Shown in pieces: positions 4,044 through 37,469 of a stretch of 37,769 bases of DNA. The DNA is from Caldilineaceae bacterium (GTDB taxonomy: Bacteria; Chloroflexota; Anaerolineae; Caldilineales; Caldilineaceae): NCBI GenBank assembly GCA_026705565.1, contig JAPPAJ010000182.1, positions 1-37,769 on the forward strand. The letters run 5' to 3'. The position numbers and the translations under genes are program-made. Below the pieces are notes generated by a model. That model had not been told where the DNA came from and made no database searches. It saw only the letters and a program-made list of their open reading frames with translations. Positions within the stretch are counted from its first letter, which is position 1. Each line of letters starts with the position of its first letter.

Positions 4044-4053
4044 TGTTGGCACC
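4044..4053. repeat. Left target-site duplication of the insertion sequence
   Basis: TGTTGGCACC, directly repeated at 5279-5288 on the other side of the element. Identical copies imply that too little time has passed for decay. Confidence 0.88.
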
Positions 4054-5278
4054 CAGGGCAATCGCATGCTAAAAGGGGCAGTGACGTCTGCGGGTAGGAT
4101 GGGCGGTCTGTGCCTTGCCTGGAATGCCTGCCATGACCATCCCCGTGCCCCTGGTGTCCCTGCTCGCTGCGGTCGACGATCCCCGTCGGCCTCAGGGACA
4201 GCACCATTCCCTGGAGGCCATCCTCCTGATCACCACCCTGGCTGTCATCTGTGGTGCCGACCACTGGACCGAGGTCGAGTTCTTTGGCCACCAGAAGCAG
4301 GCCTGGCTGGAGACCTTCCTGGAACTGCCGCACGGCATTCCCTCGCACGACACCTTCGGGCGCGTCTTCGGTCTGCTGGATCCGGCTCAGTTGGAAGCCT
4401 GCTTTGTGGCGTGGGTGCAGTCGCTGGCCGCGACCCTGCAGGACGAGGTCGTGGCCGTGGACGGCAAGGCGGCCCGGGGCTCGCACGACCAGGCCCGGAG
4501 TGTGTCCCCCCTGCACCTGGTCAGCGCCTGGGCGGACGCGGCCCGGCTGGTGCTGGGCCAGCGGCGGGTGGACGACCGGTCCAACGAGATCACGGCCATC
4601 CCGGCGCTGCTCGAGACGCTGGCGCTGGAGGGCTGCATCGTGACGATTGACGCCATGGGTTGCCAGAAGCGGATTGCAGAGACGATCCGCGACCAGGGGG
4701 CCGACTATGTGCTGGCCCTCAAAGGCAACCAGCCGCAACTGCACGAGGCCGTGGTCGAGACCTTCGCCGTCGAACAGGCCGAGGCTTTCGAGGGCTGCGA
4801 CCATGACTTCCACCAGACCGTGAACAAGAACCACGGTCGCATCGAGACGCGTCGCTGCTGGGTCATTGGAACCCCAGAGTACATTCGATATGTGGCTCCC
4901 GACGAGGCCTGGCCCGACCTGCAGAGCCTGGTCATGATTGAGGCCCAACGGCGACAGGGGGACCAGGTTACCGCGGAGACCCGCTACTACATTTCCAGTT
5001 TGCCGGCGGATGCGCGGGTCCTGTTGCAGGTCGTGCGCAGCCACTGGGGCATTGAGAACTCCCTGCACTGGGTCCTGGACATGGCCTTCCGCGAGGACGA
5101 GAGCCGCATCCGCACCGGCCATGCCGCCCACAACCTGTCGATCCTGCGGCGCATGGCCCTCAACCTCCTACGCCGCGAGACCACGGCCAAGGGCGGTATC
5201 GCTGCCAAGCGCAAGCAGGCCGGCTGGAATGACGGGTACCTCCTCAAGGTCCTGTCCCATTAGCATGCGATTGCCCCG
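4054..5278 (+). mobile_element. Complete ISAs1-family insertion sequence
   Basis: A 1225-bp insertion sequence. The left end (4054) reads CAGGGCAATCGCATGCTAA and the right end (5260-5278), read inward, reads CGGGGCAATCGCATGCTAA: 18 of 19 positions agree. It is flanked by the identical 10-bp repeats TGTTGGCACC at 4044-4053 and 5279-5288, the 8-10 bp target duplication expected for this family. The single transposase gene is intact, so the copy looks recent and possibly active. It sits in the short space between the A-type carrier gene and the 3' end of a sensor kinase gene, three bases beyond the kinase stop, so it breaks no gene. Confidence 0.93.
4115..5263 (+). CDS. ISAs1-family DDE transposase
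   Basis: A 382-residue DDE transposase of the ISAs1 family with the N-terminal DDE_Tnp_1-associated region (DDPRRPQGQHHSLEAILL) and a full catalytic core. The first Asp is in VAVDGKAARGS (Asp116) and the second in IVTIDAMGCQ (Asp179). The Glu-containing block is HWGIENSLHWVLDMAFREDESR (about 311-331), and the C-terminus ends with ILRRMALNLLRRE. The length is normal for the family. The first ATG (4115) is given; an alternative is the ATG at 4133 before TIPVPLVSLL. The stop overlaps the right inverted repeat, a compact arrangement common in this family. No frameshift or internal stop is seen. Confidence 0.95.
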   Translation: MPGMPAMTIPVPLVSLLAAVDDPRRPQGQHHSLEAILLITTLAVICGADHWTEVEFFGHQKQAWLETFLELPHGIPSHDTFGRVFGLLDPAQLEACFVAWVQSLAATLQDEVVAVDGKAARGSHDQARSVSPLHLVSAWADAARLVLGQRRVDDRSNEITAIPALLETLALEGCIVTIDAMGCQKRIAETIRDQGADYVLALKGNQPQLHEAVVETFAVEQAEAFEGCDHDFHQTVNKNHGRIETRRCWVIGTPEYIRYVAPDEAWPDLQSLVMIEAQRRQGDQVTAETRYYISSLPADARVLLQVVRSHWGIENSLHWVLDMAFREDESRIRTGHAAHNLSILRRMALNLLRRETTAKGGIAAKRKQAGWNDGYLLKVLSH

Positions 5279-9704: not shown

Positions 9705-10441
9705 TGGCTGCCCCCAAGTCGGGCTACAGGGACGAATCCCTGCCGTGCGGCGATGGCCGGGACTGGGAGAACATCTGCCGCGCCCTGGCGGACAAGCGGT
9801 CCCGCCAGGAAGAGGAGCTGGACTGGAACCTGCCGGCCGAGGCGCCGTTGCCGTACCGGTACCGCTGGGAACACGTCAAGGACGTGGTCGAGAATGCGAG
9901 GATGCTGGCCCGGCGGCTGGGTGCGGACGAAGATGCCTGCGTGGCCGCGGCTTGGCTGCACGACATCCGCAAGCTGGAGGACCAGCACGGCCGGCGCGGG
10001 GCAGCCGAAGCTGTACAGGTCCTGAAGACAACGGACTTCCCGCAGCATAAGATCGGGACCGTGGACATCGCCATTCGCCTGCATGAGGGGTTTTCGTCGG
10101 GACGGAGGGACAAGCCCTTGGAGCCCCTTGAGGCGGCGATTCTGTGGGACGCGGACAAGCTCACCAAGCTCGGTGTTCCGCAACTGGCCCACATTCTGGG
10201 TACGGCGCGGGCCATGCACATCACCCAGGAGGAACGCCTGGAGTTGGCCGAGTCCTATACGCTCGAATTCGTAGCCAATACGGCTGAGAGCATGAACACC
10301 GAACCGGCCCTCCGCATCGCCCGCATTCGGTATCGCGAGATGGTGGGGTTCGTGCAGATCTGGCGTCGCCAGATCGACGACCCGTTTGGTGAGCCCGCGG
10401 ATGGTCAGCCCCGGATTCTGCCTTCGCGTAGCAACGTCTGA
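9704..10441 (+). CDS. HD-domain metal-dependent phosphohydrolase
   Basis: A 245-residue HD-superfamily protein. The metal-binding residues are seen in YRWEHVKDVVENA (first His), AAWLHDIRKLEDQHG (the HD pair), IRLHEG and LWDADKLTKLG (distal Asp). The family hydrolyses phosphate esters such as nucleotides; the substrate here cannot be named. The ATG shares a base with the uxuA stop (TGATG at 9702-9706), so translation is coupled and the two are probably co-expressed. The C-terminal 40 residues are arginine-rich (RIARIRYREM). Coupling to uxuA hints at a role in sugar-acid metabolism, for instance as a phosphatase, but this is inference. Confidence 0.85.
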   Translation: MAAPKSGYRDESLPCGDGRDWENICRALADKRSRQEEELDWNLPAEAPLPYRYRWEHVKDVVENARMLARRLGADEDACVAAAWLHDIRKLEDQHGRRGAAEAVQVLKTTDFPQHKIGTVDIAIRLHEGFSSGRRDKPLEPLEAAILWDADKLTKLGVPQLAHILGTARAMHITQEERLELAESYTLEFVANTAESMNTEPALRIARIRYREMVGFVQIWRRQIDDPFGEPADGQPRILPSRSNV

Positions 10442-10532
10442 CCCATGATCCTGTTGTGGACAAAAGGATGAAACCCATTGAGACGGCAATTGCCGGCAGG
10501 TCGTAGCAACGCCTGGGCAGTGATCCGTTGTG
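10427..10532. repeat. Imperfect direct repeat behind the HD-domain gene
   Basis: CGTAGCAACGTCTG...TGATCCTGTTGTGG at 10427-10459 recurs imperfectly as CGTAGCAACGCCTG...TGATCCGTTGTGG from 10502 to about 10532, 75 bp further on. The first copy overlaps the HD-domain stop codon. It could mark a small duplication or the edge of an insertion carrying the RDD gene. No function is evident. Confidence 0.5.
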
Positions 10533-10561
10533 GGTAGCGTTTATGGACTGCGCCTTAACCG

Positions 10562-11683
10562 ATGAATGCTGACGTATACCCCCCTCCCGCCCGTCTGGGA
10601 TTGAGGGTAATTGCCTATTGCCTGGACATAGGGGGCTGGATCCTGCATGCCATGATCTGGACGTATGCGTTCACATTCATGGTAATGATGCAGGCAAGGT
10701 GGCCACTTAACGTGTCGACTGTTTTGAGCCTTCTGATTGTGGGTGCCTGGTTCAAACTGGCGGCACGAGGCCAGACAATCGGTAAGGTTTTGGTGGGCCT
10801 GCACGTCATCCTGATGGATGGCAAAGGGAACCAGCAGCCTCTGGGCATCCCTCAGATGTTTGCGCGGACAGTGATCAAGATTTTGGGAGCGGTGGTGGTT
10901 TTGCCGATGGTGGTGGTTTTGCCGGTTTTCCTGGACCTCTGGCGGGTTCTATTGGATCGCAGCGAAGTGATCATGATTTTGGGGGCGGTGGCGGTTTTGC
11001 CGGTTTTCCTGAACCTCTGGTTGGTTCTATCGGATCGCAGCTATTGTCGAACAATCGCGGATCGGGTGCTCAACAGCCGTGTGGTCGAAATCCCACCTGG
11101 AGCTGAGGAAGCTGGACCAGGTTCAATCCCTCCCGCCCGTCTGGGCTTGAGGGCAATTGCCTATTGCCTGGACATAGGGGTCTGGATCCTGCATGCCATG
11201 ATCTGGTCGTATCACAACATGTTCAAGGTAATGGTGCAGGGAGTGTGGCCACTTTACGTGGCAGCTGCTTTTAATCTTGCGTTTGTGGTTGCCTGGTTCA
11301 AACTGGCGGCACGAGGCCGGACAATCGGTAAGGTTTTGGTGGGCCTGCACGTCATCCTGATGGATGGCAAAGGGAACCAGCGGCCTCTGGACATCCCTCG
11401 GATGTTTGCGCGGGCAGTGATCAAGATTTTGCCGGTGACGGTGGTTTGGCCGGTTTTCCTGGACCTCTGGTGGGTTCCATGGGATCGCAGCGAAGTGATC
11501 AAGATTTGGGGAGCGGTGGCGGTTTGGCCGGTTTTCCTGGACCTCTGGTGGGTTCTATCGGATCGCAGCGATCGTCGAACAATCGCGGACCGGGCGCTCA
11601 ACAGCCGTGTAGTCGAAATCCCACCTGGAGCTGCGGAAGCTGGACCAGGTTCAACAACAGTTAATCTCGAACCAAAAGCCTGA
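10562..11683 (+). CDS. RDD-family membrane protein, internally duplicated
   Basis: A 373-residue membrane protein made of two RDD-like units in tandem, about residues 8-190 and 190-372. RDD proteins are small integral membrane proteins of poorly known function; some act in Na+/H+ exchange or transport. Each unit has ARLGLR-IAYCLDIG, a first membrane helix (WILHAMIW), a second with AWFKLAARG, and the typical TIGKVLVGLHVILMDGKGNQ motif. A tail of short hydrophobic repeats follows (PVFLDLWRVLLDRSEV and its copies), then RTIADR-LNSRVVEIPPGA. The DNA period is 546 bp. Base composition is visibly less GC-rich than the flanks. Each unit also holds a 78-bp internal duplication, so this is a nested duplication. 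The start at 10562 is the first ATG in frame. Confidence 0.8.
   Translation: MNADVYPPPARLGLRVIAYCLDIGGWILHAMIWTYAFTFMVMMQARWPLNVSTVLSLLIVGAWFKLAARGQTIGKVLVGLHVILMDGKGNQQPLGIPQMFARTVIKILGAVVVLPMVVVLPVFLDLWRVLLDRSEVIMILGAVAVLPVFLNLWLVLSDRSYCRTIADRVLNSRVVEIPPGAEEAGPGSIPPARLGLRAIAYCLDIGVWILHAMIWSYHNMFKVMVQGVWPLYVAAAFNLAFVVAWFKLAARGRTIGKVLVGLHVILMDGKGNQRPLDIPRMFARAVIKILPVTVVWPVFLDLWWVPWDRSEVIKIWGAVAVWPVFLDLWWVLSDRSDRRTIADRALNSRVVEIPPGAAEAGPGSTTVNLEPKA
10585..11675. repeat. 546-bp tandem repeat making up the RDD gene, with nested 78-bp repeats
   Basis: Two diverged copies (about 10585-11130 and 11131-11675) start with the near-identical stretch CTCCCGCCCGTCTGGG. Inside copy 1 a unit starting GCCGGTTTTCCT recurs 78 bp apart (10921 and 10999). 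Inside copy 2 the same spacing is seen at 11449 and 11527. Since both copies hold the 78-bp doubling, the small duplication probably came first. Confidence 0.85.
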
Positions 11684-22881: not shown

Positions 22882-23814
22882 CTATACCGGCCCTGATTCG
22901 AAATAGTCCTCGTCAATTCGCTGCAGTCGAAAGGTTTGGCGAGTGCGTACACCGATACCATATTGGACCATCAGACGGGCCAGTTCCTTGCCGTCAATCA
23001 AGATGATGCGCTTGGAACTCCGCTCCACGTAGGCCTTGGCTGACCTCGTGAAGTTAGCAGTCGTGACAAACACTCCCTTGGTTGAGTTTGCTACATCAAT
23101 GGCACCCACGAAATTGCGTACGTCGCTTTCACCAACGGTGTTGCCTTCGGCGTACTTCTTGGCTTGGACGTAGACCTCGTCCAAGCCAAGCGCATCCTCC
23201 TTGATAGTGCCATCAATCCCGCCGTCCCCCCACCGCCCGGTCACAGTACCTCTGGCGGCTTCGCCACCGCCATAGCCCATGGCAATCAGCAAATCGACGA
23301 CGACCTGTTCCAAGAAGCTTGGAGGAGACTTGTGCATGCGGTCCAGCAAGTCTGCCTGCAATTCACCATTCAAGCGTTGGAAGGCACTCTCCACCACTTC
23401 CTCCGATGTTGCTTCCGGGCCGGCTTTGGCCGAGGATGGACCTTCGTTGTTGACCGGAGCCTTGCTGTTGTTCTGCCATTGTTCGTAGGCAGGGAGGCTC
23501 TGAAGATACTCTAGATCGAGACGCGGCGGCGGATCCTTCAAAAGCTGTTTTCCTTCTGCCGTCAACAGAAAGACATCGCGCCCGCGCCGTATGGGCATCA
23601 CCAAGCCTGCCTGCAAGAGGTGCCGCATAGCCCAATACGTGTGGTGTTGGAGTTTCGTATAACGACCGCTCGGTTCCATCTCCTGCATGTCGTCCCGTGT
23701 GAGGCCTAGGGACTCAGCCAATCTCGCCCTCGTATCGACATAGCGCAGTCCCTTGCTGTTGGCCAATGCCTCGAGAATCGGCAACAGGAGAAACTGGACA
23801 TCAGGAACTGGCAT
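22882..23814 (-). CDS. mrr: Mrr-type restriction endonuclease (modified-DNA targeting)
   Basis: A 310-residue Mrr protein, normal length. The N-terminal winged-helix Mrr_N domain starts VPDVQFLLLPILEALAN and includes the ALLPILE-type helix, YWAMRHLLQAGLVMPIRRGRDVFLLTAEG. The C-terminal PD-(D/E)xK-like domain has GRWGDGGIDGTIKEDALGLDEVYVQAKKY with the catalytic D...QAK triad, then FVTTANFTRSAKAYVERSSKRIILIDGKELA. Mrr cleaves methylated foreign DNA and can be induced by stress. Purine-rich GAGGTGG lies before the ATG. It sits next to AbiEi/AbiEii in a stretch that looks less GC-rich than the flanks, consistent with a defence island. Confidence 0.93.
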   Translation of the reverse strand: MPVPDVQFLLLPILEALANSKGLRYVDTRARLAESLGLTRDDMQEMEPSGRYTKLQHHTYWAMRHLLQAGLVMPIRRGRDVFLLTAEGKQLLKDPPPRLDLEYLQSLPAYEQWQNNSKAPVNNEGPSSAKAGPEATSEEVVESAFQRLNGELQADLLDRMHKSPPSFLEQVVVDLLIAMGYGGGEAARGTVTGRWGDGGIDGTIKEDALGLDEVYVQAKKYAEGNTVGESDVRNFVGAIDVANSTKGVFVTTANFTRSAKAYVERSSKRIILIDGKELARLMVQYGIGVRTRQTFRLQRIDEDYFESGPV

Positions 23815-23872
23815 CGTCCCACCTCTGCACTTCTTGGGCCAGTCCGGCAGACCAGCGTGTCACTCTCACTAC

Positions 23873-23901
23873 TGTATACGGACTTCCCTCAGACGGAACA
23901 A
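23873..23901 (-). promoter_or_regulatory. Candidate sigma-70 promoter for mrr
   Basis: On the reverse strand TTGTTC (23896-23901) and TATACA (23873-23878) are separated by 17 bp, the ideal spacing; both boxes are imperfect. The -10 box is about 58 nt from the mrr start. The prediction is by pattern only. Confidence 0.35.
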
Positions 23902-24159
23902 CTGCCAGGTTGTCCTCCTATGCCTCGCGACTATTGCCTGACCACGCCTTCACCACGGCCCTGGCGATCTCGCTAGCCTCAGTTGCCACACAGAGTCCCC
24001 TGCACGGCCCCTCCGGACCGGATGCCGCATGTATTTTCAAGGCTTCCCGCCCCAACCGGACATTTGAAAAAGGCTCGTGGGAACCAATTCCTGTCATTCG
24101 AGCCCGATTGCACTCAGCAGGACAGCGCACATTGACCAGGAGCGCGCTATACAAACCGA
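23902..24159. other. Gap between abiEii and mrr, no convincing gene
   Basis: This stretch ends at the promoter region of mrr. A reverse frame (23918-24211) runs through it and includes LGREALKIHAASGPEG and EASEIARAVVKAW. It looks faintly protein-like but overlaps the end of abiEii, has no clear ribosome site, and I recognise no family. I leave it uncalled. No repeat or tRNA is seen here. Confidence 0.4.
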
Positions 24160-25203
24160 CTACATCCGGTGTATTGCTGCTTCTGCCTGCGACAGTTGCT
24201 GCATGATCCAATCAAATTCCGGGCGGGAGCCGAACACCATGTGTTGCATGTCGCGATAATCCTGTTCGAGCACGTATTGAAGTTCCTGCTGGGGAACCAA
24301 TCGAATCGATCCTGGAACCGCCTCCTCAATCCGCTTCCACGCAGTCCGGAATGCGATGAGACTATGGTTTCTCACGTCTTGGAGGAGATCGACTGCGGTA
24401 AGGGTGGATTGGCCGAGATCAGTCTGCAAAACCATCGCAACGTCATAGTAGTGGCGAGAAATCCTGTCGGCACTGGTCGGGAGACGCTTCTGATCTCGAA
24501 ACCCACAGTACAGACCATGCAGAACCAGGATTTTGTCCCAAACGGTTCGCTGTGGCGCGACGGTTCTGATTTTGTCCACATGCAGTGACCAGTTGGGAAG
24601 GTCCTCTGCGACCAACGGAGTCACGGTGCAGAGCTCAGATGGTTCGACGGCAGACCTCGCACCTGCCTCAATCTTCACCCAAGGCTCCACGTATGCGGCC
24701 AGGCTCACCGGATACATCGTTGGATATCGAACCAGAAGCGATAGGGCGTCTTGATCGTATGGGTCTGGAACGACATCGCAGCCGTCCAGTACATCGGCAA
24801 CCAGCCCTGTCAGTACAGACCGCAGATCCCCGTGCACGTAGGCACTACACGCCCGCTTCAATTCACTGAACAAGGCTTTCCGCCGCCGATTGGACAGGGA
24901 TACCTGTCCCGTTGGGTCGCTCTCGCCTGCAAAGCCGAGATCCTCCCTTGAAACGACGATGTCCACATCTTCGGAAAACCGGTTGACAAGACCAAAGGCT
25001 TTGGACAGCGACGTGCCTCCCTTGAACCACATCTTTGGATGGCCCCGGGGCAACCGATTGAAGAGGAAGTCCAGAACCAGGCAGACCCAATAGTCCTTCT
25101 CAATGTAGCTTGGAAGTGTGTTAAGCCGGTCCGCCGTTTCCTCAAACGCAATCGCCCGTTCCCACTGCGGCAACAAGACCAGGCGGTCCAAATCCCGATT
25201 CAT
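24160..25203 (-). CDS. abiEii: AbiEii-type nucleotidyltransferase toxin
   Basis: A 347-residue nucleotidyltransferase of the AbiEii/AbiGii family, the toxin of type IV toxin-antitoxin and abortive-infection pairs. The core motif FKGGTSLSKAFGLVNRFSEDVDIVVSRE gives the GG-S/T-x9+-DxD-like catalytic signature. Downstream are WVKIEAGARSAVEP and TVWDKILVLHGLY, then RISRHYYDVAMVL, all typical of the family. The proper start is the ATG at 25203 (MNRDLDRLVLLPQWERA); the frame extends upstream but that is inside the antitoxin gene. Its ATG overlaps the antitoxin stop (ATGA, 25200-25203), so expression is coupled. Confidence 0.9.
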   Translation of the reverse strand: MNRDLDRLVLLPQWERAIAFEETADRLNTLPSYIEKDYWVCLVLDFLFNRLPRGHPKMWFKGGTSLSKAFGLVNRFSEDVDIVVSREDLGFAGESDPTGQVSLSNRRRKALFSELKRACSAYVHGDLRSVLTGLVADVLDGCDVVPDPYDQDALSLLVRYPTMYPVSLAAYVEPWVKIEAGARSAVEPSELCTVTPLVAEDLPNWSLHVDKIRTVAPQRTVWDKILVLHGLYCGFRDQKRLPTSADRISRHYYDVAMVLQTDLGQSTLTAVDLLQDVRNHSLIAFRTAWKRIEEAVPGSIRLVPQQELQYVLEQDYRDMQHMVFGSRPEFDWIMQQLSQAEAAIHRM

Positions 25204-25823
25204 TCTGGTGGTCCTAAACCGGACGCGATCCGCTGGACGAGCGGGTGTGCCCAACCAGGGAGGTGGTGGCGATTTGCCATCAAGTCCTGCTTCACTTCCA
25301 CTGGCAAGCGGTGAGTCAGCATTGAACACACCTTGGGGTCCTTGGACGCGTGTGGCCCCAGCCACAGCAGTGCCGAAACCACCAGCTGTGCGGGTTTGCC
25401 AGTCCATGACATCGTCCTTGGCGATGCATGTTGGAAACGCGGCGTGCGCTTGGCGAAGTTCAGTGTGCTCGAGTGGCCGTGTGTCAAGTAGCTGACGTGC
25501 GTGGGCACCGGGTTCGTCAGCCCCAATCCGTTTGCCGCAACCAAGCCGTTAGGCATGATCCGGATCCCATCCCTTCTGACCAGTGCATCAACGGCAGCTT
25601 CCAGATTCATCGGTGCAGCCCGTCCCAGCAATTCGCTTAACACCGGCCTGTCGTAGAAGCCATGACCCACCCGACGCAGTTGGCCGGACTGGACCAGCCG
25701 CGACAAGGCTTTGTCCACAGCCTGCCGCTCCCCAAGGTCCAGGAAATCCTTCGGGGTGCAAACCCACCTTCGGTTGGGTTGTTCCGACACCCTCTGCATG
25801 ATTCTGCCGGCCACCGATGCCAT
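25200..25823 (-). CDS. abiEi: AbiEi-type antitoxin (DUF6088 group)
   Basis: A 207-residue protein with an N-terminal winged helix (WVCTPKDFLDLGERQAVDKALSRLVQSGQLRRVGHGFYDRP) and a C-terminal domain that includes NGLGLTNPVPTHVSYLTHGHSSTLNFAKR. This matches the DUF6088/AbiEi antitoxins that repress their own promoter and antagonise AbiEii. It overlaps the toxin gene by the ATGA at 25200-25203. The ATG at 25823 is chosen; a GGGAGG motif lies a few bases ahead on the reverse strand. The gene order (antitoxin first) is normal for AbiE operons. Confidence 0.88.
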   Translation of the reverse strand: MASVAGRIMQRVSEQPNRRWVCTPKDFLDLGERQAVDKALSRLVQSGQLRRVGHGFYDRPVLSELLGRAAPMNLEAAVDALVRRDGIRIMPNGLVAANGLGLTNPVPTHVSYLTHGHSSTLNFAKRTPRFQHASPRTMSWTGKPAQLVVSALLWLGPHASKDPKVCSMLTHRLPVEVKQDLMANRHHLPGWAHPLVQRIASGLGPPE

Positions 25824-32400: not shown

Positions 32401-33489
32401 TCAGGCCGGCAGGGTCACCTCGTACACCTGCGCATGGCCCAGCGCGTCGCTGGTGTAGATCACGTGCCGTCCATCCGGAGAGAAGGACGGATGGGGATGG
32501 GTGTGCTGCGGTGCATACACGGCAATGGGACCGTCCTCGTAGGGAAACGGACCGTTCCAGTGGTCGCCCAAGCTGCTGGCCTGCGGCTGGCACAGAAGGC
32601 GGGGCTCACCCGCGCCGTCGAGCGGATCGAACACTTGGATGCCAATGTCCGGGAAATTGGTGTCGGCGACCATGCGCCGTCCATCAGGCGACGCGATCGC
32701 GTGCCAGGCATTGAAGGAGGTGACAGGCCGCACCGCGCCCGTGTCCACGTGCACGGCCTGCATGCCGTTGGGCCAGTCCACGAACCCCACCTCCCGCGTG
32801 CCCGGGATCCAGGCCTCGTGGGTGATCCACTGGCCCGGCGAACGTTCGTAGAGGCGGCGATTGTCGGTTCCGTCGCGCCGGACCAACCATACGCGGTCCT
32901 TGAGCGGCCCCGCGTAGAAGAGCAGGTCGGGATCATCGGGGCAGAACTGCATGTGGGAGACATCGTCCCGGCGCAGGATCACCTCGTGGGTTCCGGCTTC
33001 CACATCGACAACCGCGATGCAGGCCTCGTCCCCGTCCTTGAAGCGCACCGCCCAATAGCGGTCGCAGCGGCTGAGGGCGGTCGTACCCATGGCGGCCGCC
33101 ACCATGCCTTCATCCCGCATCAGCAGCCCGGCGAAGTCGACTAGCTGCTCCTCGGCAAACGTCTCCGTGTGGACGCGCCAGCCGCCGCTGCCGGTGGTGA
33201 AATAAATCCAGTTCCCGTCGTGGGACGGATGGATGGAAAAGTCGGCCACGTCGTCGCGGTCCGTGAGCTGCACCAGATCGCCGGCAGCGCGATCCTCCAC
33301 AAATATCTGCGGCGCGCCCCCGCGTTCCGAGGTGAACAGGGTCCAGCGCATGGCATCGTCATAGGCGGGCACCAGGAAGAACGGCTGGTGGTGGATCGAC
33401 GGATGCGACGTGATCTGCCTGATTTCCACCTGCGTGGCCTCGTCCCGGAATGTTCGGGACTCGGCAGGCAGCCGGTCTCCCTTGGTCAT
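32401..33489 (-). CDS. Oligogalacturonide-lyase-like beta-propeller (PL22 type)
   Basis: A 362-residue protein with repeated propeller blades (FSIHPSHDGNWIYFTTGSGGW, AIASPDGRRMVADTNFP, PSFSPDGRHVIYTSDALG). The N-terminus IRQITSHPSIHHQPFFLVPAYDD and the HTHPHPSFSPDGRHVIYTSD block fit the oligogalacturonate lyases of family PL22, which split unsaturated digalacturonate to 5-keto-4-deoxyuronate. The histidine-rich HTHPHPSF motif is where a metal and base would sit. The ATG at 33489 has GGAG upstream. It is intact, unlike the relative at 26459-27598, and sits 22 nt from the DapA-like gene. The assignment of substrate to pectin fragments is inferred; the family also includes TolB-like propellers of other roles. 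Confidence 0.75.
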   Translation of the reverse strand: MTKGDRLPAESRTFRDEATQVEIRQITSHPSIHHQPFFLVPAYDDAMRWTLFTSERGGAPQIFVEDRAAGDLVQLTDRDDVADFSIHPSHDGNWIYFTTGSGGWRVHTETFAEEQLVDFAGLLMRDEGMVAAAMGTTALSRCDRYWAVRFKDGDEACIAVVDVEAGTHEVILRRDDVSHMQFCPDDPDLLFYAGPLKDRVWLVRRDGTDNRRLYERSPGQWITHEAWIPGTREVGFVDWPNGMQAVHVDTGAVRPVTSFNAWHAIASPDGRRMVADTNFPDIGIQVFDPLDGAGEPRLLCQPQASSLGDHWNGPFPYEDGPIAVYAPQHTHPHPSFSPDGRHVIYTSDALGHAQVYEVTLPA

Positions 33490-33511
33490 GATGCTCCGGT
33501 CCCCAACGCGA

Positions 33512-34498
33512 TTAGCCTACGGCCAGCACCGAAGCATCAACTTCCTGGAGCAACCCGCGGGCACCGTACCAATCGTCGAAGCCGGACTCCGCCAAGTCGT
33601 CCCGGATGCGCTGGATGTCGGCGTCGTCCAGGGGCCGCAGCGGAGGCCTGACCGTGGTCGAGGGGAAGCGACCCTGCAGGTGCATCGCCATCTTCATGCG
33701 CTGATGGGCATCCGAAGAGGGTTCGCCGAACCGGTAGACCGCCTTGTTCAGCCGGTACACCACCTCCTGGGTGGCATAGGCGCGCTCGTAGTCGCCGGAC
33801 AGGGCCGCGTGGACCAGATCGACGATCAGTTCCGGCACAAAGCCGGCAAACCCGACCAGGGCTCCGTCCGCGCCTGCCAGAAGCGAGGCCAACAGGTATT
33901 CATCGTGGCAGGACAGCAGCGGCACGTCGGGGGCGTGCTCCTTGAGCACCCGATGCTCGTGTCCCAGCCGCGACATGTCGCGGGTCCCCATCTTGATGGC
34001 CACGACCTCGTCGATGTCCGTGAGCGCCAGCATTTCCTCAAGCGTGTAGGTGGCCTTGGTCCACTGGGGGTATTGATGGACGATGATGGGTATGCCGGTC
34101 GCCACGGCCACATCCTCGAAGTAGCCCACGGCAGTGGTCGAGGTGCGTCCGAAGCGCAGCCAGTGGTGCGCCGGCATCAGGAGAATGGCGTCGGCCCCCG
34201 CCTCACGGGCCGCCTCCGCATGGTCGATGGCCTCGAAACTGCCTTCGCAGCAAATGCCCGAGATCACCTTGCAGTCGCCCGCGGCCTCCTTCATGAGCCG
34301 CACGACCTCGGCCCTTTCCTCCGGCCTCAGCCCCATGACTTCGCCGGTATGCCCGTTGCAGACCAGGCCCTTCAGGTTGGGCACCGAAGCCAGGTAGCGC
34401 GTATAGGCCTGCAGGCCCTCGACGTCGATGTCGAAGAAGTGCGGCTCGAAGGGACAGAGTGTGGCGGCGAAGACGCCGCTCCAGGGGTGTTCAAACAC
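33512..34498 (-). CDS. DapA-like class I aldolase/lyase
   Basis: A 328-residue member of the dihydrodipicolinate synthase superfamily (DHDPS, N-acetylneuraminate lyase, KDG aldolase). Conserved elements: FAATLCPF and GLVCNGHTGEVMGL (a substrate loop), VISGICCEGS, GADAILLMPAHH, the Tyr in IIVHQYP, and the Schiff-base Lys in VVAIKMGTRDMS. The GHTGEVMGL version of GTTGE is an unusual loop, suggesting a non-DapA substrate such as a keto-deoxy sugar acid. The GTG at 34498 is chosen because AAGGAG lies 7 nt before it and homology begins at VFEHPWSGVF; the frame is open to 34543. No dapB or lysine genes are nearby; a catabolic role fits better. Confidence 0.85.
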   Translation of the reverse strand: MFEHPWSGVFAATLCPFEPHFFDIDVEGLQAYTRYLASVPNLKGLVCNGHTGEVMGLRPEERAEVVRLMKEAAGDCKVISGICCEGSFEAIDHAEAAREAGADAILLMPAHHWLRFGRTSTTAVGYFEDVAVATGIPIIVHQYPQWTKATYTLEEMLALTDIDEVVAIKMGTRDMSRLGHEHRVLKEHAPDVPLLSCHDEYLLASLLAGADGALVGFAGFVPELIVDLVHAALSGDYERAYATQEVVYRLNKAVYRFGEPSSDAHQRMKMAMHLQGRFPSTTVRPPLRPLDDADIQRIRDDLAESGFDDWYGARGLLQEVDASVLAVG

Positions 34499-34546
34499 GG
34501 GTTTGCTCCTTGCATGTTGATCGGCCACCTGTCGGCCCGACACGTT

Positions 34547-34648
34547 TCACTTCTTGACGACCTGCCGCGGGTTGAGGGCGTCGTTGAGCCCGTCCCCAAG
34601 GAAGGTGGACGCGAATACGATAACGCCAATCGTAGCTGCCGCAACATT
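34547..34648 (-). pseudogene. 3' stub of a second oppC (ABC permease)
   Basis: The reverse strand encodes only the last residues of an OppC permease (AATIGVIVFASTFLGDG and LNDALNPRQVVKK), ending exactly at a TGA (34547-34549). About 92 bp align without gaps to the 3' end of the intact oppC at 36489, with roughly ten mismatches, mostly silent. Upstream of this the similarity stops. It marks a lost or displaced second oppC, or the far edge of a segment inserted at the oppC 3' end. Confidence 0.85.
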
Positions 34649-34781
34649 CGTCTGGTGGGAACAGGACGCTTGGCGGCGTATCTGCACTCACCACGACCCC
34701 GGAATGGCCTTGGCCAACTGCAAGCCTGTGAACAGGGGTAGGAAGAGGGTTCAAGGGACACACGGTTTCACGCTTTCCCCT
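34649..34781. other. Short gap beside the oppC stub, no gene seen
   Basis: I find no reading frame with recognisable content between the stub and the end of the DUF1828/1829 gene. Base composition falls from GC-rich to mixed here, which fits a junction. Confidence 0.4.
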
Positions 34782-35552
34782 TCACCGAACCAGTTCATCG
34801 ACTGATTCTTCTCTCGTTGTCCATGCCAGCGGTGTCACCCCGTAGGAACTGAGGGCCCAATGTACTTGCTCAGACACCCTTTGCCCCGAGTCGTTCAATA
34901 TGGCATATGCACGCGAATCCGATGGCCGGGCGTGTTGCGTATCCAACCAGGCGAAAGTTACAGACTGAACTCGGTCCCGATTGGGATTGTTCACAACACG
35001 GACAATACGTTCCGGATATTCCATTGAATGAGGAATGACAAAGTCAAATCTATGTCCAAAACCACTATTTCCAGCAAACATTACGCTTGCCGTATAGCGA
35101 ATATTGAAATTATCCAACCATGCTGTGACTTCATCAAGGAAGACATTCGTGACGACCGGAGCCGCGAGGACAAACAAATCGTTGACTGCGAGCATTGCTT
35201 GGACTAGGCCATGCTTGCGCAACGCGAAATCACTGCCTGACGCGTGGGTCTCCAGTGCGCGGGTCTCCCCGTTTAGACGGACACCGAACCCGTTCAAGGT
35301 GGTCTCCAACAGTCGATGGCGGCGCTCGCTTCCCAAGTCACATCCGGACAGTTCCAAGTCCTCAATCGTATAGGCATCGTCTGACAACAGATACCCGTCG
35401 CCGTCGCGCTTGACGTAGATCTGTAGGAAGTCGTTGTGCCGATCCAGGTATGGAGTGGTGATCTCGACCCACTCGTCCACTTGCCGTACCTGTGTCTCAT
35501 CCTCCAGCCAACGGCGATAGGAGTTGAGCAAGGTCTCAACATCTTGGATCAT
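34782..35552 (-). CDS. DUF1828/DUF1829 domain protein
   Basis: A 256-residue protein. The N-terminal half matches DUF1828: LLNSYRRWLED, then ITTPYLDRHNDFLQIYVKRDGDGYLLSDDAYTIEDLELSG. The C-terminal half matches DUF1829: SSEF-like FDFVIPHSMEYPERIVRVVNNPNRDRVQSVTFAWLDTQ and SRAYAILNDSGQRVSEQV. Both are families of unknown function found in mobile and defence-like contexts. The ATG at 35552 is chosen, although the frame is open to 35615, because it overlaps the stop of the DUF6978 gene (ATGA, 35549-35552). The stop at 34782 is close to the oppC stub. Its base composition differs from the flanking catabolic genes. A toxin-antitoxin or defence role is possible but unproven. Confidence 0.85.
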   Translation of the reverse strand: MIQDVETLLNSYRRWLEDETQVRQVDEWVEITTPYLDRHNDFLQIYVKRDGDGYLLSDDAYTIEDLELSGCDLGSERRHRLLETTLNGFGVRLNGETRALETHASGSDFALRKHGLVQAMLAVNDLFVLAAPVVTNVFLDEVTAWLDNFNIRYTASVMFAGNSGFGHRFDFVIPHSMEYPERIVRVVNNPNRDRVQSVTFAWLDTQHARPSDSRAYAILNDSGQRVSEQVHWALSSYGVTPLAWTTREESVDELVR

Positions 35553-36106
35553 GCGAACAGGGAACCCTGGATGTATGGAGACTCCACGATATTCGGGGAT
35601 TCCACGATGTTGCAAAAACGCATGAAGTCATCGAGAGACCGTCTCATATTCGACAGGTTGCGGAAGCGGTCCATTGGAACCGGAAATGCCCACTTGTCTG
35701 CGTAGCCTGCGCGGTAGAGATGCAGGTGCGGCGTTTCGATGCGCTTGCCATCTGGATTCCTGTGAGGGGAACCGCCCAGATCAAGCCGAACGAGGACAAT
35801 CGATCTGCGGACCCGGTTCTGGTAGGTGATCTTGGCGAAATTGATCCTGCCACGTTGAATGTCCAAGAGAAACGGTGCCCTGCCATCTCGAGAAGTCAAT
35901 GGAATGCTGATGGAACCTCCCATGTTCGGGAATTCCCACATGGTGTCATCGCGGCACACCTTCTCCAATTCCAGGAGTTGGTCCGCTTCACTCTGAGACA
36001 ACTCAACGTTGGCCAACGGATCACTCAGGTTGATCTTGCCTGCATCCACAACTCGGCACCGAGTTGAGCATGGCACAGGGATGGAGTCGGCATCGGGTCC
36101 AATCAA
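35549..36106 (-). CDS. DUF6978-like protein, first gene of a coupled pair
   Basis: About 185 residues at most, matching the pattern of DUF6978: QSEADQLLELEKVCRDDTMWEFPNMGGSISIPLTSRDGRAPFLLDIQRGRINFAKITYQNRVR, VLVRLDLGGSPHRNPDG, TPHLHLYRAGYADKWAFPVP and FNIVESPNIQG-type ends. The family is uncharacterised and in my memory is often found beside DUF1828. The start is uncertain: TTG at 36106 gives the longest frame, but homology begins near LSQSEADQ, and several GTG and TTG codons lie between. A 27-bp hairpin just upstream (36117-36143) may control it. The C-terminus holds a small NIVESPNIVESPY repeat from an 18-bp DNA duplication. Confidence 0.75.
   Translation of the reverse strand: MIGPDADSIPVPCSTRCRVVDAGKINLSDPLANVELSQSEADQLLELEKVCRDDTMWEFPNMGGSISIPLTSRDGRAPFLLDIQRGRINFAKITYQNRVRRSIVLVRLDLGGSPHRNPDGKRIETPHLHLYRAGYADKWAFPVPMDRFRNLSNMRRSLDDFMRFCNIVESPNIVESPYIQGSLFA
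35576..35611. repeat. 18-bp imperfect tandem repeat near the 3' end of the DUF6978 gene
   Basis: TGGAGACTCCACGATATT (35576-35593) is followed by CGGGGATTCCACGATGTT (35594-35611), 14 of 18 identical, coding for IVESPN twice (the second with Y). It adds six residues just before the C-terminus. Confidence 0.7.
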
Positions 36107-36116
36107 CAGCGCGAAG

Positions 36117-36143
36117 GTGAACCAACTCCCTGGTTGAGTTCAC
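36117..36143. promoter_or_regulatory. Hairpin/inverted repeat ahead of the DUF6978 gene, candidate operator
   Basis: GTGAACCAACT (36117-36127) pairs with GGTTG-A-GTTCAC (36132-36143) across a four-base loop, giving eleven pairs with one bulge. It lies 10 bp before the longest start (36106). A repeat in this place could be an operator for autoregulation, or a terminator of upstream transcription, though no T tract follows. Confidence 0.35.
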
Positions 36144-36488
36144 GACGCGACAACCCGGGACAGACACGTCCCTCGCAGAAACATCAATCGGAAAGTGTAC
36201 ACAGCGATCGTCCTGCGCCGAACAAGCGAATTTGGAGGCGAAAATGTTCATGTATCCGACATCTTCATGGGCGACCACCAGGAAAAGCGCATGGAAGTGG
36301 ATGGACAGACTCGACGTGAGTTGCCAGGCTTCGACCCCATGGGGCTGCAACCCGGAGCATTCGAGAGGCGACCAGCAAAACTGGCCCCTTGGCCGTAAAC
36401 ATCCTGTCCCAATAGCGATTCTGCAGTAGCCGGCATGAGCGTAGACATCTTCAGAAGGAGGACCAGGCACCGACATGCTCGGACCGAG
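36144..36488. other. 345-bp gap upstream of the DUF6978 gene, no supported gene
   Basis: A reverse frame (36021-36476) crosses it with FHALFLVVAHEDVGYMNIF and a high Cys/His content, but there is no ribosome site or family match I recognise, and the frame overlaps the DUF6978 gene start. I see no tRNA, repeat or known motif beyond the hairpin at 36117-36143. The promoter of the coupled pair is probably in this stretch. Confidence 0.4.
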
Positions 36489-37469
36489 TCACTTCTTGAT
36501 GACCTGCCTCGGGTTGAGGGCGTCGTTGAGTCCATCACCGAGGAAGGTGAAGGCGAATACGATAACGCCAATCGTGGCCGCCGGAATGATCATCAGGTGG
36601 GGGAAGGAAATCCAGAGGCTGAAGCTGTCGCTCAGCATGGAACCCCAGCTGGCGTTGGGCGGCTGTACGCCGATGCCCAGGAAGCTCAAGCCGGATTCCA
36701 GTGTGATGGCCCCGCCCACGCCGGCGGTCACGGTCACGATGATGGGACCGATGGCGTTGGGAATGATGTAGTGGGTCAGGATGCGGCGTTCGTCAACGCC
36801 AATGGCCCGCGCCGCCTCGACATAGAGGGTCTCGCGCACCGACAGCACCTGGCCGCGCAGCAGCCTGGCAAACCCGGGCCAGCTGATGAAGGCCAGCGCC
36901 CCGAACACCAGCACGAAGTCCAGCCACAGAGTGTCGAGGTAGAAGGGATTCTTGGTCTGCATGTACATGTCGTCGAACCAGGCCGCAATCGGCCGCTTCA
37001 GCGCCGTGTTCATGAGCATGGCCAGCAGCAGGCCCGGCACGGACATGGTCACGTCCGTCAGCCACATCAGGAATTCGTCCGCCAAGCCCCGTACGTAACC
37101 GGCAATTCCGCCCAGCACGATGCCGATGAAAAGGGAGATGGCGGTGGTGAAGAAGCCCACAAACGCCGCCGTGCGCGCCCCGTGCAGCAGACGCGACAGA
37201 ATATCCCGGCCCAGGGCATCCGTCCCCAGCCAATGCCGGGCGGTCGGCTTGGCCAGGGCGTTGTCGATTTCCTGCTCCAGAAAATCGTAAGGGGTTATGT
37301 AAGGTCCCACCAATCCCGCCAGGATGAACAGAACCACCACGACCAGGCCCAGGGTCGCCAGGCGGTTCAGGAACAGCCGGTGCAGGGCCTCCTTCCAGAG
37401 GTTCCGCTGCGCCACCTCCTCGGGCTGGGACAGGGATGTCAGGCGTTCGCTGGGAACCGTGGCAGCCAT
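36489..37469 (-). CDS. oppC: OppC-type ABC transporter permease
   Basis: A 326-residue permease of the peptide/opine (DppC/OppC) class. The N-terminal OppC_N domain is seen (LHRLFLNRLATLGLVVVVLFILAGLVGPY), the HWLGTDALGRDILSRLLHGARTA motif that precedes the first core helix, and the EAA loop in YVEAARAIGVDERRILTHYIIPN that contacts the ATPase. The C-terminus ends FLGDGLNDALNPR. It works with OppB to form the membrane channel for an imported solute. It begins 12 nt after the oppB stop. The 3' end is partly copied at 34547-34648. Confidence 0.93.
   Translation of the reverse strand: MAATVPSERLTSLSQPEEVAQRNLWKEALHRLFLNRLATLGLVVVVLFILAGLVGPYITPYDFLEQEIDNALAKPTARHWLGTDALGRDILSRLLHGARTAAFVGFFTTAISLFIGIVLGGIAGYVRGLADEFLMWLTDVTMSVPGLLLAMLMNTALKRPIAAWFDDMYMQTKNPFYLDTLWLDFVLVFGALAFISWPGFARLLRGQVLSVRETLYVEAARAIGVDERRILTHYIIPNAIGPIIVTVTAGVGGAITLESGLSFLGIGVQPPNASWGSMLSDSFSLWISFPHLMIIPAATIGVIVFAFTFLGDGLNDALNPRQVIKK

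Follow-up and report, generated by a model that had tools for sequence, protein, structure and literature searches.

R-M systems are reported to enter genomes without a mobile element and to leave target duplications that are long (~100 bp) and variable (Nobusato 2000 and Furuta 2010, as summarized in PMC3874152 and PMC3031569). Between hsdS and hsdR lies a recognized hotspot where defence genes, DarTG2 and others among them, are embedded (PMC12255303). In HipAD/DS-6, a DUF3037-DUF1829 protein is proposed to act with the HipA kinase, and DUF1829 was thereby implicated in defence in 2026 (PMC13092281). PADLOC lists a further two-gene system, PDC-M24, solely as a phage defence candidate. The locus described here bears on how small, recombinase-free defence modules move between operons.

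The window, that is, the whole stretch of DNA analysed (37,769 nucleotides), is one complete contig of a Caldilineaceae bacterium (G000:C397). On its minus strand, oppC (37469–36489) is followed by two genes, A and B, and then by a dapA-like gene (34543–33512). The features are as follows:

36489–37469, minus strand: oppC, an intact ABC peptide-transporter permease gene (Pfam BPD_transp_1 and OppC_N).
36200–36486, minus strand: decayed remnant in which the Pectate_lyase22-like gene's 5′ end and its junction with dapA are copied, with a C-terminal bit of dapA (alignment to 33285–33585).
35549–36016, minus strand: gene A, DUF6978, PDC-M24A (PF22398, 6e-43; PDLC04538, 4.5e-55; homologue alignment).
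34782–35552, minus strand: gene B, DUF1828 plus DUF1829, PDC-M24B (PF08861, 4e-24; PF08862, 2e-28; PDLC04539, 6e-94; model pLDDT 89.9).
34547–34659, minus strand: oppC′ stub, repeating the 3′ end of oppC up to the stop codon (86% over 113 bp).
33512–34543, minus strand: intact dapA-like gene, directly after oppC in relatives (PF00701, 7.5e-36; synteny).
32401–33489, minus strand: intact Pectate_lyase22/PD40 (TolB-like) gene, the source of the remnant at 36200–36486 (PF14583, 2.9e-20).

Gene A likely starts at the TTG at 36016, which yields MANVELSQSEAD as homologues have, and is coupled to gene B by an ATGA overlap (gene B from 35552, gene A to 35549). The G+C content falls from ~0.65 outside to 0.47–0.57 across the pair segment. 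Within the insert (34660–36488), genes A and B alone gave family matches, and no recombinase, transposase or integrase was found. An earlier note on this DNA had described the overlapping DUF6978 and DUF1828/1829 genes between oppC and a DapA-like gene, the deviating base composition of the segment, and an oppC 3′ end on both sides, each copy ending at the stop codon; all of this is borne out by the domain matches (6e-43, 4e-24 and 2e-28) and the values given above. The intact oppC–dapA junction that it had proposed to look for in a relative lacking the pair also exists, as follows.

In a search of the host's own whole genome, the last 113 bp of oppC (36489–36601) recur at 34547–34659 with 86% identity (E = 4e-31); that genome has no other strong duplicate of this gene end. 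A wider alignment between stub and gene gives 76.7% over 219 aligned bases. Past the 113 bp, weak collinear oppC similarity is seen at 34660–34737 (z ~1.4, alone not significant), and the similarity of the stub may continue to ~34737. Two genomes of the same genus, G002 and G003, whose oppC protein is 98% identical, display an empty site, with a single oppC, ~50 bp of intergenic DNA and then dapA. A third same-genus genome is without this oppC, and DUF6978 was not found in any of the three. The locus thus combines a direct repeat of the order of 100 bp at both ends with a one-copy empty site in relatives. The copies diverge more from each other than the window does from its relatives; hence, either the insertion is older than the split, with subsequent loss in the relatives, or the remnants stem from a diverged donor. 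For the oppC tail in the window, a plain duplication followed by neutral decay of the stub is also compatible with the data, as is a swap in either direction.

A second remnant, overlooked in the earlier note, lies upstream of the pair. Positions 36200–36486 align with 33285–33585 in the same orientation (71.5% identity over 267 aligned bases, gapped), and a longer alignment scores 506 versus 319 ± 17 for shuffles (z ~11). Most of the dapA copy is absent from this remnant. In the direction of transcription, the order is oppC, dapA-end′, lyase-start′, A, B, oppC-end′, dapA, lyase gene, which is the order of a ~1.5 kb target present in duplicate on either side of an insert, the spare dapA being largely lost. 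Because a copy of the lyase-gene start is found on the other side of the pair, the footprint is larger than an att site. Divergence is unequal between the two remnants, 14% for oppC′ versus 28% for lyase′, so that the two may not stem from one event. At the protein level, the matches found for the lyase remnant are all weak (E ~0.06), but the top ones are this operon's own gene and its counterparts in the two relatives; a paralogous operon as its origin is not favoured.

Taken with the survey described below, these features are best explained, with reasonable though moderate confidence, by horizontal acquisition of a two-gene, probably anti-phage module (PDC-M24) that was inserted in the opp operon with duplicated gene ends, as for R-M systems. 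The PDC-M24 pair would have entered between oppC and dapA, and its insertion would have duplicated operon DNA on both sides, so that a copy of the oppC tail came to lie downstream of the pair, and copies of the end of dapA and of the lyase-gene start upstream of it. One full copy of each neighbouring gene would have been retained while the spare copies decayed.

Both proteins match the PADLOC candidate (4.5e-55 for PDC-M24A and 6e-94 for PDC-M24B) and occur in the same two-gene order, which makes this a PDC-M24 locus by sequence; NCBIfam holds no model for the pair, and the literature searched yielded neither an experimental test of PDC-M24 nor a description of its insertion footprint. The earlier suggestion of a possibly new module accordingly gives way to a pair already listed in PADLOC, with DUF1829 already implicated in defence. 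The pair is probably an anti-phage module, and we treat it as a candidate. As in HipAD/DS-6, DUF1829 belongs to the second of two proteins, but the partner is DUF6978 and not a kinase, and DUF1828 takes the place of DUF3037 (PMC13092281).

The pairing itself, which the earlier note had proposed to check across genomes, proved to be that of a conserved unit rather than lacking elsewhere. In 80 named loci from many phyla, with the gene A position visible in 78, gene A lies directly upstream of gene B in 73 of the 78, and the ATGA overlap is present in 60 of those 73. At the class level, distribution is patchy, with 20 of 396 genomes above the Pfam cut-off. The pair adjoins an integrase in staphylococcal phage 37, a DUF1828 protein does so in a streptococcal satellite, and relatives are also plasmid-borne (an IncP plasmid, an Acetobacter plasmid). 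Immediately upstream stands hsdS at 14 of 52 loci, and immediately downstream hsdR at 16 of 53; ~30% of pairs adjoin one or the other. These tallies are approximate, as one list counted gene B itself as a neighbouring ORF (L097). Other neighbours are Abi, AbiJ, S_4TM and reverse-transcriptase genes.

To describe the surroundings of the pair elsewhere, 86 other loci were scanned for tight repeats, defined as direct repeats with both copies at most 300 nt from the pair, and 3649 same-size gaps in the same contigs served as controls. Tight repeats of 33–163 bp flank the pair at 10 of the 86 loci, compared with 19 of the 3649 control gaps (0.5%; binomial p = 4e-11); the remaining 76 loci have none. 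The window is not among the 10, since the lyase/dapA remnant between oppC and the pair breaks the 300-nt criterion. The repeats are mostly ends of adjoining genes, either 3′ or 5′:

L152: 3′ end of an ABC-2 permease gene (146 bp, 96.6%).
L081 and L082: 3′ end of an enolase-family gene.
L072, L073 and L099: 3′ end of hsdS.
L130 and L166: 5′ end of hsdR; L119 likewise but further off.

The targets, including oppC, are diverse. The repeat-flanked inserts measure 1.25–1.6 kb and comprise the pair and little else, without a recombinase; the repeat at L073 encloses a larger insert. At several loci, the G+C content of the insert is far from that of the flanks (0.35 versus 0.61 at L152). Nothing stood out as an inverted repeat at the insert ends, and a common att core was absent across the insertions, the repeats reading as unrelated except within the hsd loci and between L081 and L082.

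The hsd loci raise the possibility that the pair has no mobility property of its own and is an ordinary passenger of defence-island gene turnover, in which conserved gene ends, foremost those of hsdS and hsdR, recombine homologously. The share of loci adjoining these genes, a known embedding hotspot (PMC12255303), speaks for this; DarTG2 and others occupy the same site as ~30% of the sampled pair loci. The window locus, however, is situated in the opp operon instead, and L152, L081 and L082 likewise lie in metabolic or transport operons, which makes the passenger explanation rather doubtful, although it is the strongest competitor of an insertion with duplicated gene ends.

Comparison of the repeat copies offers a view of their origin. 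Counted in frame, 62 of the differences between copies are synonymous and 31 nonsynonymous, a synonymous excess even over an assumed expectation of 40% for one constrained and one free branch (p = 2e-7; p = 5e-5 without L166). At L152, all five differences are synonymous and fall within the last 36 bp. At L081 and L082, which belong to one genus, the displaced tail agrees, together with its flank, with the empty site seen in the relative L189, while the tail within the gene is the ARYSVD-type allele of other species. With the native tail displaced and a foreign-type tail in the gene, the incoming DNA probably brought its own gene end, at these two loci at least.

Phages at icd and ICEs at other genes bring replacement gene ends, and an element would do the same here if it integrated site-specifically into gene 3′ ends, its integrase being supplied in trans or having later disappeared. 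The allele exchange at L081 and L082 would fit, as would the repeats that end at a stop codon (window, L152, L072 and L073) and the integrases found beside the pair in staphylococcal phage 37 and beside the DUF1828 protein in the streptococcal satellite. Against it stand inserts of 1.25–1.8 kb without a recombinase, target sequences that are unrelated and include hsdR 5′ ends, and the lyase-gene remnant in the window, which it leaves unexplained; we consider site-specific integration unlikely. The earlier note had considered, as one possibility, an integrated segment carrying its own gene end, in the manner of integrative elements. The first part gains from the inserted segment, the duplicated end, the empty site, the repeats at other loci and the L081/L082 alleles; the likeness to an integrative element fares less well, given an insert without an integrase, the lack of a shared att site, and a lyase/dapA remnant unexpected of site-specific integration. 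An old tandem duplication of oppC-tail/dapA/lyase-start, with the pair picked up at the junction, or brought into the spare copy later by an unrelated event, would predict exactly the observed order of remnants with dapA′ deleted and would suit the high divergence of the lyase remnant, but relatives have a clean single-copy junction and coincidence does not predict gene-end repeats recurring around the pair elsewhere, so that we regard it as improbable.

Insertion of the pair with duplicated gene ends resembles the R-M insertions, as these are summarized in the sources cited above, in its cargo-only insert without a recombinase, variable direct repeats of ~100 bp and an empty site in a relative. 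It differs from them as summarized there in that the pair, having no methyltransferase, is not an R-M system, and in that most of its repeats are ends of neighbouring genes whose copies differ synonymously, a hint that the donor supplied the gene end. We infer that incoming DNA bore a gene end homologous to that of the recipient, that homologous recombination made the junction on one side while the other formed illegitimately, upstream of the recipient's own gene end, and that selection kept the gene-preserving outcomes. As a tentative generalization, plausible but short of probable, a non-R-M defence pair might spread as a bare two-gene, recombinase-free cassette anchored in gene ends by homology and by illegitimate joining upstream, leaving a diverged gene-end duplicate and breaking no gene; recombination between the repeats could then lead to clean loss and restore the empty site.

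Structures of both proteins were predicted by AlphaFold2 and compared with PDB folds; a sequence search of solved structures had returned no relative of either. The gene A model (pLDDT 94.5) has no confident fold match in the PDB, the best Z score of 5.0 being no proof of a new fold; its PHLH histidines are invariant. In the gene B model (pLDDT 89.9), residues 130–258 (DUF1829) are predicted to adopt a PD-(D/E)XK fold, with matches to 1y88 (Z 11.6, RMSD 2.9, 110 aligned), PspGI (Z 11.6, RMSD 3.9, 154 aligned) and Can2 (Z 11.0, RMSD 2.9, 116 aligned). Across 43 sequences, the third core strand (184–191) does not carry the (D/E)xK motif; it mostly reads R-I-[LVI]-x-[TA]-I-N-R, with no acidic residue among the common letters. 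The modelled DUF1829 domain would thus appear to be a catalytically degenerate PD-(D/E)XK domain. For residues 15–136, the similarity is to chaperone-like proteins of type III secretion (8q8o, Z 9.2, RMSD 3.4, 110 aligned; SpcU, Z 7.8), in matches that lie near the noise level quoted for the tool. It is conceivable, if rather speculative, that B is a regulator, sensor or antitoxin-like partner, a role also proposed for the DUF1829 protein in HipAD, and A the effector or its activator or trigger. A putatively degenerate nuclease fold in B and a partner without a confident fold match would narrow the choice of assays.

The pair was already known as the PDC-M24 candidate; new are the lyase-side remnant, the pairing across many phyla, the recurrent gene-end repeats and the pattern of copy origin. 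A pair of ~1.2 kb with recurrent gene-end duplicates in many phyla gives a concrete, testable footprint; it shows the long-target-duplication pattern outside R-M systems as well, and offers a sequence signature for spotting mobile defence cassettes outside defence islands.

Several further observations concern these genomes and loci. The host genome has ~30 OppC-like permease matches, and its relatives likewise. The window contains a second defence-like spot (22882–25407) with an Mrr-type restriction endonuclease gene (22885–23814) and an AbiEii-type toxin gene (24163–25407); at the DNA level, G002 aligns less well over the former (80%) and not at all over the AbiEii stretch, and the G003 stretch compared has neither gene. 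Downstream of the pair at L073, a further protein (10044–10862) displays a DUF1828-like LLSDEGHT motif. At L072 (reverse complement), the hsdS 3′ end occurs three times, at 1070–1133, 2428–2466 and 4046–4109, following hsdS, the pair and a DUF3800 gene, respectively, as though every module of cargo were closed by an hsdS tail of its own.
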